Source of the DNA: Clostridiales bacterium
GTDB taxonomy: Bacteria > Bacillota > Clostridia > Saccharofermentanales > Saccharofermentanaceae
Length of the DNA stretch: 64,000 nt
Direction: 5' to 3'
Assembly: GCA_017513085.1 (NCBI GenBank)
Contig: JAFWDK010000015.1
Span: forward strand, 62,001-126,000
Positions 2,794 to 7,651 of the stretch are shown in pieces. The notes below the pieces were generated by a model that did not search any database, had not been told where the DNA came from, and saw only the letters and a program-made list of their open reading frames with translations. Position numbers and translations under genes: made by a program. Each line of letters begins with the position of its first letter. Within the stretch, counting starts at the first letter, position 1.

Positions 2794-3918
2794 CTAAGCA
2801 TCCTCACTGAAATCCGTATCCATTGCAATTTGGAGCGTGTGATCAGGGTATTCTTTGCTGACTTTTTCGCAGACCTCCTGATACACCGCGCGTCGGTCTT
2901 TCGCATCAAAACTGATCACGATATCGAATCGGATCGACTTTTCAGCTTTATCAAGATAGAATCCGTGCATTTGCAAAACTCCGGAAACCTCGCCGACGAT
3001 CTTGGCAACTTTATTTCTGGCCTCCACTGCTTCAGGATCCCGGGTGTTATAGGAATACACGCCGATTGCAGTAAGGATCACATTATGTTCACTGAATACC
3101 TTGATCTGGATCTTCCGCAGCAGTTTATCAAGATTATCGGCAGAGAGAGTATCAGGAACTTCAATATGAACTGATCCGTTAAAAGAATCGGGTCCGTAAT
3201 TATGCAGGACAAGATCATAGACGCCATTTACTTCCGGAAAGCTTGCTACTGTTGCTTTAATGCTTCTGGCTAAATCAGCATCCACACGCTCGCCGAGGAT
3301 CTTCGACAATGTATCCCTTAGCATCTCTACACCTGCTTTGATGATCACTGCAGAAATGATAGCACCAAGCCATGCTTCCAAAGATAGGCCAAAGAGAAGG
3401 TATATGGCAGCAGCTGCAAGTGTTGAAGCGGAAATGACAGAATCCAGTACAGCATCGTCGCCCGAATTGATCAGCGAATCGGATTTCACTTTTTTCCCGA
3501 CACTCTTCACATATCTTCCAAGGACGATCTTGACCAGAACCGCCACGCCGACGATGATAAGAGAAACGGGAGCATATTCCGGCGTAACAGGGTGGATGAT
3601 CTTTTTGACTGATTCGATAAATGCCGTAATACCGGCATAAAGAACGATCACGGAAATGATCATGGCACTTAGATATTCGATTCTTCCATATCCGAACGGG
3701 TGCTTCTTATCCGGCTCCTTGCCGGCAAGCTTCGTACCAATGATCGTGATCACAGAACTCGCTGCATCTGAAATGTTATTTACAGCATCCATGATAATAG
3801 CGATAGAATTGGAAAGAATTCCTATTACTGCTTTAAAAGATGCAAGAAAAACATTGGCAACGATACCGATCCCACTTGTCCTGATGATGATCTTGTTCCG
3901 ATCATTTCGTTCGTTCAT
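2794..3918 (-). CDS. Cation diffusion facilitator, probable Mn-type exporter
   Basis: This 374-residue CDF transporter has about six membrane helices, a cytoplasmic C-terminal ferredoxin-like domain and the family motif HPFGYGR at 73-79. CDF proteins export divalent cations by proton antiport. The transport site looks unusual: TM2 has Asn47 and Asp51 (NNISD) and TM5 has Asp155 and Asp159 (DAVLD), where Zn transporters have His and Asp. This N-D-D-D set is the one known from MntE-like manganese exporters, so Mn is the inferred substrate. GGAGG precedes the ATG. No metal riboswitch is recognisable in the leader. Confidence 0.85.
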   Translation of the reverse strand: MNERNDRNKIIIRTSGIGIVANVFLASFKAVIGILSNSIAIIMDAVNNISDAASSVITIIGTKLAGKEPDKKHPFGYGRIEYLSAMIISVIVLYAGITAFIESVKKIIHPVTPEYAPVSLIIVGVAVLVKIVLGRYVKSVGKKVKSDSLINSGDDAVLDSVISASTLAAAAIYLLFGLSLEAWLGAIISAVIIKAGVEMLRDTLSKILGERVDADLARSIKATVASFPEVNGVYDLVLHNYGPDSFNGSVHIEVPDTLSADNLDKLLRKIQIKVFSEHNVILTAIGVYSYNTRDPEAVEARNKVAKIVGEVSGVLQMHGFYLDKAEKSIRFDIVISFDAKDRRAVYQEVCEKVSKEYPDHTLQIAMDTDFSEDA

Positions 3919-3992
3919 ACCCGTTCCTCCTAAACTCTCTGTTTCAACATATCAAATCTATTTCGTATGCCCATTACCGAAGTACATTAACA

Positions 3993-4020
3993 GGAAGTGA
4001 TGGTAAAAGCATACCACTTC
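3993..4020 (-). terminator. Hairpin after the XRE-PurM gene
   Basis: On the minus strand GAAGTG-GTA pairs with TACC-CACTTC in a long hairpin about 30 bases after the stop of the XRE-PurM gene. There is no clear T-run, so it is a weak terminator or an mRNA-end stabiliser. Confidence 0.35.
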
Positions 4021-4052
4021 AACAGATTTCAGACAATGAACGAGGAGCATCA

Positions 4053-5303
4053 TTACAGCCAGTTCAGACGATCATGGAATTCGATCTTTCTTTCACCTTT
4101 TTTCACTTCACCGATCTCGTAGCAATCGTAGGTCTTTCCGATATGATCCATGATTACTTTTTTATTTTTCTGCGAAGTGACCACAATAAAACCTACACCG
4201 CAATTAAACGTACGCAGCATCTCTTCATCCGTGATATTGCCATTATCGCGGATGAACTTGAAAAGGTTGAGGATGCGGATCTTTGACAGATCGATATCGG
4301 CACATAGTCCATCCGGAATGACACGGCACAGATTGCCTTCGATGCCGCCACCGGTGATATGCGCCATACCATGGATGATATCCTTCGGGAATAGTGCTTT
4401 TAGAGCGGGATAATAGGGTGTATGAGGCTTCATGATCTGCTCGATGAACGTCATGCCGTCAATCTTATCGAGCTTGATCTTCGGCATCTTATCCATAAGA
4501 AGACGCACCAAAGAATAACCGTTGGTGTGAAGTCCATTGGAAGCGATCGCCAGGACCGCGTCTCCCTCTTCGATCTTTGATCCGTCAATGACTTTCGACT
4601 TCTCCACAATGCCGGCGATACTGGATGTCAGCACGTAGACGCCCGCATCCACCACCAGCGGCTGGATGGAAGTTTCGCCGCCCACAAGGGAGCACTCGTT
4701 CTCCCGGCAGGCATCCGACACACCTTTGACCAGCGTCTTGATGGTATCCTTCTCCGCATTTCCGCAGACGATGGTATCGAGGACCGCCAGGGGTTTAGCG
4801 CCCATGACGACGATGTCATTGACCAGGTGGTTGATCATGTCATGGCAGATGGACTCCGTGTAGCCGTATTCCATAGCCAGTTTCTGTTTCGAACCGGGCT
4901 CTTCGGACTTCAGGACCAGTACCGGATCGGTTATTTCCGGGAACTTGATATCGTACAGTGAGGCAAAAGGACCCAGGCCGTTCAAGACGCGGCGGTCTTT
5001 CGTTTCCAGACTCTTTGCCATTTCTTTCTTGATCGTATCCGTATAAGTGATATCGATGCCGGCCTTGCTATATGAAAGTCCGTCGGCTTCTTTTTCACTT
5101 CCAGCAAGAAGCTCATCCACCGAAACTTCAAGGACCGTCGCCAGTTCTTTTAGACTCTCGATATTGGGATATGCGGTGCCGTTTTCCCACTTGGACACCG
5201 CCTGAAAAGACACCTTCAATTTATCCGCTAGCTGCTGTTGGGTAAGATTCAAACTCTTTCTTTTCTCTGCGATAAAACGACCGATCTTCGAACTGTCCAG
5301 CAT
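4053..5303 (-). CDS. XRE helix-turn-helix fused to PurM/AIR-synthase-like domain
   Basis: This 416-residue protein has an XRE/Cro-type DNA-binding domain at residues 5-62 (LTQQQLADKLKVSFQAVSKWE), followed by a PurM-like domain from about 76 to the end. PurM features include YSKAGIDIT, LVGGET, NGLHTNGYSLVR and HITGGG. PurM normally cyclises FGAM to AIR with ATP in purine synthesis. Here the family's DGVGTK nucleotide motif is replaced by SEEPGSK (about 133-139), and the normal enzyme has no HTH. A purine-intermediate-sensing regulator is therefore more likely than a working enzyme, by inference. The start ATG has GGAGGTG upstream; an in-frame start at 5333 lacks one. Confidence 0.8.
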   Translation of the reverse strand: MLDSSKIGRFIAEKRKSLNLTQQQLADKLKVSFQAVSKWENGTAYPNIESLKELATVLEVSVDELLAGSEKEADGLSYSKAGIDITYTDTIKKEMAKSLETKDRRVLNGLGPFASLYDIKFPEITDPVLVLKSEEPGSKQKLAMEYGYTESICHDMINHLVNDIVVMGAKPLAVLDTIVCGNAEKDTIKTLVKGVSDACRENECSLVGGETSIQPLVVDAGVYVLTSSIAGIVEKSKVIDGSKIEEGDAVLAIASNGLHTNGYSLVRLLMDKMPKIKLDKIDGMTFIEQIMKPHTPYYPALKALFPKDIIHGMAHITGGGIEGNLCRVIPDGLCADIDLSKIRILNLFKFIRDNGNITDEEMLRTFNCGVGFIVVTSQKNKKVIMDHIGKTYDCYEIGEVKKGERKIEFHDRLNWL

Positions 5304-5434
5304 GACCCGGCACCTCCGTTTTTTCTTTATCATAGCCGCTTAGCCGGCGCGAAAACAATAACCTTCTACTTGAGTTTAACATGAAAATTCAACTTGTGGT
5401 TGAGGAAAAATATTTAACTTTTTGTCGTATATAC

Positions 5435-5463
5435 TTGACATTATGTCGCAGACGTTGTACTAT
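5435..5463 (+). promoter_or_regulatory. Sigma-A promoter of the membrane protein-XRE operon
   Basis: TTGACA (5435-5440), a 17-bp spacer and TACTAT (5458-5463) form a near-consensus promoter ahead of the plus-strand pair at 5527-6661. TGTCG occurs on both sides of the -35 about 21 bp apart and could be an operator for the small XRE protein encoded in the operon. Confidence 0.65.
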
Positions 5464-5526
5464 TCATCTTGCAAGGCAGGGAGAAGCCCTGCCGGACAGA
5501 TGCGTTTTGCACGGAGGTGTAAACTT

Positions 5527-6480
5527 ATGAAAAAGAAAACATTAGCCTCGACGGTTTTGTCGATCATTATTGTGACAGTAGTCATTCTGGCAGCAGGCAT
5601 CAGATGCGCGCTTCGGCCGGAGAGCAAAGACTTTATTCAGTTTAGTAGCACGGTCACCGTCACAGACACCGGCATAGAACATGAACTCGAACCCATCCAC
5701 TTCGAGCCGATCGGCAAGAAGGTCACTTTTGATGTAGAGATCGATGGACCGGACGGAATAGATACCGAAGTCATCATCCACGTCGGATCACCGGATTCCG
5801 CATCTATCGTGAAAGAGAAGATAACCGGAACCGGGGATGGCAGTGCGAAGATCCATGTCACCGATGCTGAGGGCAAGGATCTGTATATGCAGTTCATTCC
5901 TGAAAACAGCGGTTCTCTCGCCCCCTCATCCTATAGTCTCCAATTCAAGCTGAAGGGCACTTCTGACGAACTGAAATTCCATAGCGGTCCCATGATGATT
6001 GCCGCCCTTCTCCTGGTCTTTGGGATCTATGTAATCGTGACAACCAACCGCAGCGAAAGCAAATACGATGAGCGTCAGCTGGCCGCTCGCGGAAAAGCTG
6101 CGATGAATGCACTGATCATTGTTATGATGTGCTGTTTTACATATGGCTGTCTGAGCATGTCCGTCGAGAACTTCCCGATCTCCATGTATGAGGTTGGCAT
6201 CGGATCAGTGATCGTAGGCTCGACCGCATTTGCCATCATGTGCGATGTCAATGATGCGTTCTTCGGTCTTTCCGAGAGACGCGCGAAGTTCATTGCCCTT
6301 TCTTGGGTCATGGGCATCCTGGCACTCTTTGGCGCCGGCATGACATTCCTCGGGCTCGGAAGATTTAACGAGATCACCGGCACAGGGCTCGTTGTAGGCA
6401 TCTGCTTCCTCCTTCTCGCCATCGAGCTCACGGTGAAGTCATCCATCGAGAAAAAGGAGGCCACTGATGAAGAATCTTAG
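5527..6480 (+). CDS. Multi-pass membrane protein with extracytoplasmic domain
   Basis: This 317-residue protein begins with a signal-anchor helix (about 10-27). An extracytoplasmic beta-rich region of roughly 130 residues follows, then about five membrane helices. KYDERQLAARGKA lies between helices, a motif seen in DUF2178-like membrane proteins that are paired with small HTH proteins. The start ATG (MKKKTLAS) has CGGAGGTG upstream; an in-frame ATG at 5422 overlaps the promoter. The gene overlaps the downstream XRE gene by 14 bases. The function is unknown; sensing or sequestration linked to the partner regulator is an inference. Confidence 0.7.
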   Translation: MKKKTLASTVLSIIIVTVVILAAGIRCALRPESKDFIQFSSTVTVTDTGIEHELEPIHFEPIGKKVTFDVEIDGPDGIDTEVIIHVGSPDSASIVKEKITGTGDGSAKIHVTDAEGKDLYMQFIPENSGSLAPSSYSLQFKLKGTSDELKFHSGPMMIAALLLVFGIYVIVTTNRSESKYDERQLAARGKAAMNALIIVMMCCFTYGCLSMSVENFPISMYEVGIGSVIVGSTAFAIMCDVNDAFFGLSERRAKFIALSWVMGILALFGAGMTFLGLGRFNEITGTGLVVGICFLLLAIELTVKSSIEKKEATDEES

Positions 6481-6661
6481 GTTAAAAGCGGCACGCGCCG
6501 CCCTGGACATGTCCCAGCAGGATCTGGCCGACAAAGTCGGCGTCTCCCGACAGACGATCAACGCCATTGAAAAAGGCGACTATAATCCCACGATCAAGCT
6601 CTGCCTGGCGATATGCAGAGCCCTCGGCAAGACCCTGGACGAGCTGTTCTGGGAAGAATAA
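6467..6661 (+). CDS. Small XRE-family regulator (64 aa)
   Basis: This single helix-turn-helix protein of the YozG/compact-Cro type contains MSQQDLADKVGVSRQTINAIE and the ending TLDELFW. It is about the normal length for regulators paired with DUF2178-like membrane proteins. Its start lies inside the end of the upstream membrane protein gene, so the two are translationally coupled. It probably controls its own operon through the promoter at 5435-5463. Confidence 0.88.
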   Translation: MKNLRLKAARAALDMSQQDLADKVGVSRQTINAIEKGDYNPTIKLCLAICRALGKTLDELFWEE

Positions 6662-6731: not shown

Positions 6732-6890
6732 TTACGCTTTCCACACGCTCTTTTCGATCGCACACACATCATCGTGATACGGCCCTTCCCCGGTGAAAAG
6801 CACCTGGAACCTGCACTTTTCCAGCACGCGCCCCGACGCCTTGTTCTCCTGAAGGCGTACGCCGCGCACGTGTTTCAGATCCCTTTCAGC
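6732..6890 (-). pseudogene. C-terminal remnant of a GNAT acetyltransferase
   Basis: One minus-strand frame encodes a typical GNAT tail: HVRGVRLQENKASGRVLEKC, then FTGEGPYHDD and a Trp-Lys-Ala end. ENKAS-RVLEK is the conserved C-terminal signature of RimJ/RimL-like acetyltransferases. No N-terminal GNAT part precedes it. It is joined in another frame to the end of the P-loop NTPase gene, whose last residues look abnormal. This is most simply a deletion junction that removed most of an acetyltransferase and perhaps the NTPase tail. Confidence 0.65.
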
Positions 6891-7651
6891 GCACCATATC
6901 CCTTCGACGGAAGGATCGTTGTCTTCTCTGGAAAAAGCACTTCGCAAATTCTCAGTTCCAGTTCCTGCCTGTGGGCAAAGTGCGCGATCAGGGCCTCCTC
7001 CCCCGAAACTCCTCTTGCCTTCGCGTAGGGTGAATTATCGAAGAACTGCATCATCAGCGGAAACCACATCTCCACACCGTTTTCATCCGACCGTTCTTTT
7101 CTGATCACCTGAAGATTCCCGAGAAGATCTTCCGCCTTGAGATAAAGGATCTGAAACTCTTTTCCCGAAAGAGCATCGCGGATTTTCTGATAGAAAGAAA
7201 GGATCTCTTCATCAGACAAATTCCGGAAGAGGATCATGTCCTCGACGATGTTCTGGAAAAGCGAGCACTCGAAGATGTTCCCGTCACTGTTCCACGCCGC
7301 AAAACGCCGGAGAATGATCGACTCGAATTCCTCAAAAGTCACCCGGTTATTGTAGATCTCATACTGCTCCAGATCCTGATAGAATGCCCGATCTTCGGAA
7401 CGGATCTTGGTATAGGTCACGATCCGCTTTGTCCCCTCAGAAAAAGTCTTCTCCTCGATCTCATTACGAAGAGACGGATACTTCTCGAGGATCGCCGAAT
7501 ACTTCTCCTCATCCAAATATGCACACCAAGCAAGTTCCACAGGCGAATACTCGCCTTCCCGGACCGCCTTGAGTTCCGGATGAAGCTCCTGAAGCTTACT
7601 TACCAAGGTGCTTTTGCCACTTCCCTGTAAACCTTCAACGAAATAATTCAT
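6875..7651 (-). CDS. P-loop NTPase (kinase-like)
   Basis: This 258-residue protein has a perfect Walker A, GLQGSGKST (residues 7-15), at the N-terminus and otherwise resembles small nucleotide or metabolite kinases of unknown substrate. Glu/Asp-rich helices follow, and LRRF and FRNL segments could form the lid. GGGAGAGG precedes the ATG. The last dozen residues run into the GNAT remnant region, so the C-terminus may be truncated or replaced. It lies just downstream of a GNAT gene in the same orientation. Confidence 0.7.
   Translation of the reverse strand: MNYFVEGLQGSGKSTLVSKLQELHPELKAVREGEYSPVELAWCAYLDEEKYSAILEKYPSLRNEIEEKTFSEGTKRIVTYTKIRSEDRAFYQDLEQYEIYNNRVTFEEFESIILRRFAAWNSDGNIFECSLFQNIVEDMILFRNLSDEEILSFYQKIRDALSGKEFQILYLKAEDLLGNLQVIRKERSDENGVEMWFPLMMQFFDNSPYAKARGVSGEEALIAHFAHRQELELRICEVLFPEKTTILPSKGYGALKGI

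Follow-up and report, generated by a model that had tools for sequence, protein, structure and literature searches.

In the 64,000-nucleotide stretch of DNA analysed here (the window), one gene joins a Cro/C1-type (XRE) helix-turn-helix (HTH) to a remodelled AIR synthetase (PurM) domain, and its product is probably an autogenous regulator. We place the probability at roughly 60% that this fusion is gated by a ligand, controls only its own gene (more likely as an activator than as a repressor) and has lost or strongly changed its ordinary AIR synthetase activity. A regulatory role is likely, judging from sequence comparisons: the XRE domain is authentic and under purifying selection, the PurM domain is remodelled while the genome encodes a further PurM, and the operator is strongly conserved. 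The positions of the features are listed in Table 1.

Table 1. Features of the HTH-PurM fusion gene and its promoter (window coordinates)
Feature	Position	Strand	Description	Basis
HTH-PurM fusion gene	4053..5303	(-)	416 aa, XRE HTH + PurM	Domain search, conservation
Cro/C1-type HTH (HTH_3)	5109..5273	(-)	Residues 11-65	Pfam PF01381, E 5e-17
PurM/AIR synthetase domain	4098..5075	(-)	Residues 77-402	TIGR00878, predicted fold
SEEPGSK	4887..4907	(-)	Residues 133-139, replaces TDGVGTK	Alignment of 101 homologues
Operator site 1 (predicted)	5387..5404	(-)	CTCAACCACAAGTTGAAT, predicted centre about -73.5	Footprint of 57 non-redundant promoters
Operator site 2 (predicted)	5356..5374	(-)	CTCAAGTAGAAGGTTATTG, predicted centre about -43.5	In register with site 1 at a distance of 30 bp
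Predicted -35 hexamer	5353..5358	(-)	TTGTTT	Overlaps end of site 2; conserved TTG
Predicted -10 hexamer	5329..5334	(-)	TATGAT	Conserved GNTATNATAAA
Ribosome-binding site	5312..5317	(-)	GGAGGT	Read from sequence; partly conserved

The domain searches agreed with the sequence-only reading, which had described a Cro-type HTH preceding a PurM-like domain. The HTH_3 match (E 5e-17) was followed by AIRS at residues 150-232 and AIRS_C at residues 245-406 (Pfam), and TIGR00878 (purM) matched residues 77-402 with 270.2 bits against a curated cut-off of 236.35. No phosphoribosyltransferase domain was found in the protein, the architecture being HTH_3 + AIRS + AIRS_C. An alternative upstream start at 5333 is allowed by the rules for open reading frames; because its ATG falls within the conserved -10 element, 5303 was taken as the correct start of the 416-residue protein. 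In the AlphaFold model (mean pLDDT 88, pTM 0.77), the HTH comprised five helices (residues 4-17, 22-29, 33-40, 48-57 and 62-67), and Foldseek superposed the model on E. coli PurM (1cli) with a TM-score of 0.93 by target length, a fold match in line with the PurM-like domain proposed earlier. The recognition helix corresponds approximately to SFQAVSKWENG. The HTH was nearly invariant in the family alignment, and pN/pS values of 0.18 for the HTH and 0.14 for the PurM domain, obtained with synonymous sites near saturation, indicated purifying selection on both. No conserved gene neighbourhood was found as a functional clue, and no credible Rfam match (riboswitch or other RNA leader) was obtained for window positions 3900-5700. 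A defence system was also considered and rejected, the PADLOC matches having fallen on the HTH region. Elsewhere in the window, a small XRE regulator (6467-6661) overlaps the 3′ end of a divergent gene that has no Pfam match (5527-6661), and positions 6875-7651 encode a deoxynucleoside-kinase-like protein (PF01712, dNK, E 1e-4, under the curated cut-off).

The remodelling of the PurM domain was assessed by comparing 101 EEPGS proteins with 26 canonical PurMs, using the numbering of the canonical reference L142. The SGTDGVGTK of canonical PurM corresponded to LKSEEPGSK in the fusion. DGVGTK was present in all 26 canonical sequences, and all 101 members carried EEPGSK instead (E134, E135, P136, G137, S138 and K139 of the fusion), in line with the earlier reading of DGVGTK as SEEPGSK in the fusion. 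The invariant or nearly invariant exchanges were D65 to E, G66 to E, V67 to P, T69 to S and S62-G63 to L-K, together with E144 to I and D155 to V. The N-terminal AGY...V.L.K segment was lost (A17, G18, Y19, V22 and L24 became Y, T, D, K and E, and K26 was variable), and the GGETAEMP segment was also replaced, invariantly. D94, E141, H191, N193, H249, TGGG, R261 and FNxGxG were kept; the Asp of VND, GGET, H-x-N, H-I-TGGG and FNxGxG were retained in at least 90% of the 101 members. In selenophosphate synthetase, which has a related AIRS fold, an N-terminal Lys/Asp, the Asp of TxD, a second Asp and a Glu bind the ATP phosphates (PMC7595633). By analogy, the first two of these elements would be changed in the EEPGS proteins and the last two kept. 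The replacement of ATP-site features by other invariant residues, together with the retention of other active-site residues, suggests a new function rather than decay. Purifying selection on both domains, with synonymous sites near saturation, points to a new function that has been maintained. From these exchanges, we infer that ordinary AIR synthetase activity has been lost or strongly changed; since several active-site residues are kept, some activity may remain. The earlier description of the domain as a retired enzyme is at most tentative, given the acidic replacement at position 65 and the conserved D94, E141, H191, N193, H249 and TGGG.

The window's genome was found to encode another PurM, a long form of 398 residues whose DGAGTK motif is intact (L002:1390-2586, G000:C19); the sequence-only reading had named the absence of such a separate PurM, together with complementation of purM by the fusion, as an argument against itself. 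The long form occurred in all 23 genomes of the genus, in some of them in pieces. Among 41 other hosts, a canonical PurM scoring > 420 bits was found in 33 and the long form in seven, and no other PurM was found in G093. Because another PurM with an intact motif was present in 63 of the 64 host genomes checked, the fusion is regarded as a paralogue. The window's genome also contained purC and purH, and its purine pathway is therefore probably intact, with the long form probably serving as its working PurM. The fusion was the only protein in this genome above the TIGR00878 purM cut-off, the long form scoring below it. Automatic annotation may label the HTH fusion, and not the long form, as purM, an annotation trap through which genome-scale models would give the purM step to the wrong gene. 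The fusion resembles canonical PurM (TIGR00878; E. coli 1cli) in its full-length fold, an identity of about 31-37% and many retained active-site residues, whereas it differs in the added XRE HTH, three replaced segments, the coexistence with another PurM and an accessory distribution.

A scan of approximately 85,000 bacterial and archaeal genomes yielded 299 relatives, and the HTH-PurM architecture suggested for a domain search proved to be widespread among them: in the best 80 of the 299, EEPGS was present in 80/80 and an intact XRE HTH in 79/80, the HTH of L111 being truncated. The genomes are mostly MAGs, and by their record titles most hosts were Lachnospiraceae or other Clostridia of the gut and rumen. 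In the window's genus, 21 of 23 genomes carried the fusion (20 congeners and the window's own); the two congeners without it were G013, with a standalone EEPGSK protein of 53% identity, and G006, with neither. A member was held by approximately 12 of 299 sampled genomes of the family of G090 (about 4%), including two HTH-less copies and one degraded copy. The HTH-bearing proteins formed one clade with the standalone EEPGSK proteins outside it, indicating a single origin of the HTH fusion; the branch separating it from canonical PurM was very long, and the placement of the long branches is unsure. Members from the window's genus fell into two separate clades, which suggests horizontal transfer. 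In a plasmid search for fusion homologues, the best matches were PurMs with 35-37% identity, mostly in chromosome-sized records. The HTH-less EEPGSK PurM-like proteins (L024/L277, L173/L278, L274 and L275) showed approximately 50% identity to the PurM domain, and a MazG-family gene lies close by, downstream of L275. L283 (G609:C56), a degraded copy, lacks an N-terminal HTH, reads KEPGSK where EEPGSK would be expected and is apparently a pseudogene.

These features also bear on the alternative that the fusion is a still-active enzyme, whose PurM domain makes AIR or runs a related ATP-dependent reaction and whose HTH merely tunes its own expression in the manner of a trigger enzyme. The score above the purM equivalog cut-off, the conservation of D94, E141, H191, N193, H249, TGGG and R261, the exchange of D65 for Glu, also an acid, the existence of HTH-less relatives with EEPGSK and the HAD phosphatase gene located between the operator and the fusion in L131 are all compatible with such an enzyme. 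However, every member has other residues in place of both DGVGT and the N-terminal PurM segment, another PurM is present in 63 of 64 genomes, and the gene is patchy, reaching only about 4% of one sampled family. A still-active enzyme is therefore an unlikely explanation, although one that retains appreciable weight.

Phylogenetic footprinting of the fusion upstream regions gave TTCAACC-N3-GGTTGAAT as the consensus of site 1 and YTC-N8-GGTTATTG as that of site 2. In both predicted sites, TTC stands 9 bp before GGTT, and the sites are exactly 30 bp apart. The predicted -35 has its TTG within the last bases of site 2, and an 18-bp spacer separates it from GNTATNATAAA; positions assume a predicted +1 some 7 nt downstream of the -10 box. 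GTTATTG, with part of site 1, served to anchor the alignment, which made no use of the site 2 TTC, the site 1 outer bases or the -10. T-11 and C-10 were invariant in 57/57 non-redundant promoters, and the promoter block was conserved although synonymous divergence was saturated. Wherever a lineage has an intact HTH, tandem operators were found upstream of the fusion gene; L116 and L101 have near copies, and L276, L280 and L281, homologues of 62-69% identity, have diverged forms. Of 91 copies with a score of 8 or more out of 10, 88 showed an operator spacing of 26 bp and three a spacing of 27 bp. In L131 (4874-7064), the operator precedes a HAD phosphatase gene (PF08282) that itself lies directly before the HTH-PurM gene, an order that may reflect an operon and point to a functional partner.

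The specificity of the operator was evaluated by pattern searches in 43 genomes and a weight-matrix scan of 2.0 Mb of loci. All 34 zero-mismatch composite matches in the 43 genomes were located at the fusion gene, one per genome, and in four further genomes a composite match with one mismatch was found there. Perfect TTCAAC-N5-GTTGAA palindromes in the 43 genomes occurred 15 times at the fusion gene and five times in coding sequence or between gene ends. Site 1 was the unique exact site in the window's genome, where the next-best matches had two mismatches (17 vs. 5 for a reversed-pattern control); one of these, shared with a congener, lay within a glycyl-tRNA synthetase-like coding sequence. 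The composite operator scored 50 bits at the fusion promoter, and the next best score in the window was 0.3. One extra good operator was detected among the 43 genomes (G086, L239; G086:C17:21994-22031, minus strand), preceding a 52-codon ORF (MDNLKTGFDYRPATEYDII...) with no significant Pfam match. No operator was found at the HTH-less EEPGSK relatives examined (L024, L173, L274 and L275), and in L111 (8180 region) the HTH was truncated and the operator gone, with the PurM domain intact. The Lys following WENG in the HTH was paired with a T before GTTATTG in 27/27 cases, and other residues occurred with T in 0/67; because this co-change is confined to one clade, it represents a single event and carries little independent weight.

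Given this unique operator and its link to the HTH, autogenous control is the best reading. The fusion had previously been proposed as a purine-sensing transcription factor, of which the regulatory part agrees with the conserved XRE domain, the remodelled PurM domain and the operator. A transcription factor that senses a purine intermediate and also controls purine genes would fit the joining of an HTH to PurM, and enzyme-derived regulators have precedent (PMC3602430). However, the weight-matrix scan of 2.0 Mb detected no operator at the purC, purH, canonical purM or long-form purM loci, the operator being essentially unique to the fusion's own promoter, and control of a purine regulon appears improbable. 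Sites weaker than the searched patterns could nevertheless add up to a wider regulon. It is more doubtful still that the conserved elements are bound by another regulator while the fusion's HTH has a different role, since one operator per genome implies a dedicated binder and the operator tracks the HTH, being absent where the HTH is absent, even across apparent horizontal transfer. Finally, an ordinary purM with an accidental HTH fusion or an assembly error, despite the score above the TIGR00878 cut-off, is refuted by the conservation of the fusion in many independent assemblies (20 other congeners and 79/80 collection loci), the presence of another PurM and the invariant motif change.

In the proposed autogenous regulation, the PurM domains would dimerise like known PurMs and thereby pair the HTHs. 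The dimers would sit on both sites, which would share a face of the DNA at a distance of 30 bp and lie directly upstream of a weak -35; the protein would control the transcription of no gene but its own. A ligand in the remodelled cleft, possibly a nucleotide or phosphoribosyl compound, would set the switch; the natural candidates, ATP, FGAM and AIR, are suggested by the fold. Auto-activation is favoured because sites at about -43.5 and -73.5 are typical of activators and the -35 is weak, whereas the contact of predicted site 2 with the -35 would also make repression possible. By analogy with lambda CI at PRM, we give a modest preference to auto-activation.

Lambda CI has a Cro/C1 HTH and binds tandem operators located just upstream of a weak -35 (about -42) at PRM, resulting in auto-activation; it also represses divergent promoters, and its C-terminal domain is peptidase-like. 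The fusion shares the Cro/C1 HTH and the predicted tandem operators just upstream of a weak -35, but its C-terminal domain is a PurM. Bacillus subtilis PurR combines a winged HTH with an inactive phosphoribosyltransferase domain and controls a multi-operon regulon with PurBoxes. The fusion would resemble it in the idea of a purine regulator that senses through a retired purine-metabolism enzyme fold, whereas the HTH type and the enzyme fold are different and none of the purC, purH and purM loci examined has the fusion operator. A parallel in design is the BzdR/BoxR subfamily, in which an N-terminal XRE HTH is likewise joined to a domain that descends from a metabolic enzyme with nucleotide-binding function: in BzdR, a shikimate-kinase-like domain lost catalysis and became effector-binding, producing a ligand-controlled regulator (PMC3602430). 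BzdR controls a benzoate degradation operon, whereas the fusion has AIRS/AIRS_C and its sole evident target is its own promoter. No XRE-PurM regulator was described in the open-access literature searched, so the earlier statement that no regulator of this design was known is sustained for the XRE-PurM combination but not for the general design, and the fusion would represent a second design like BzdR, here with PurM.

A more elaborate and only tentative possibility is that the gene is a horizontally spreading one-gene switch, in which a PurM-derived pseudoenzyme would sense a purine-pathway ligand (FGAM, AIR or ATP) and activate only its own promoter via the two tandem operators, the output being the level of the protein itself, with a further role of the PurM domain in the cell. 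If this were true, the AIR-synthetase fold would have a regulatory use that the search of the bacterial literature did not turn up. As a captured domain, the PurM fold would join the short list of enzyme domains taken over by transcription regulators, and the very large set of natural variants, together with a predicted operator, would allow binding and ligand to be tested at once.
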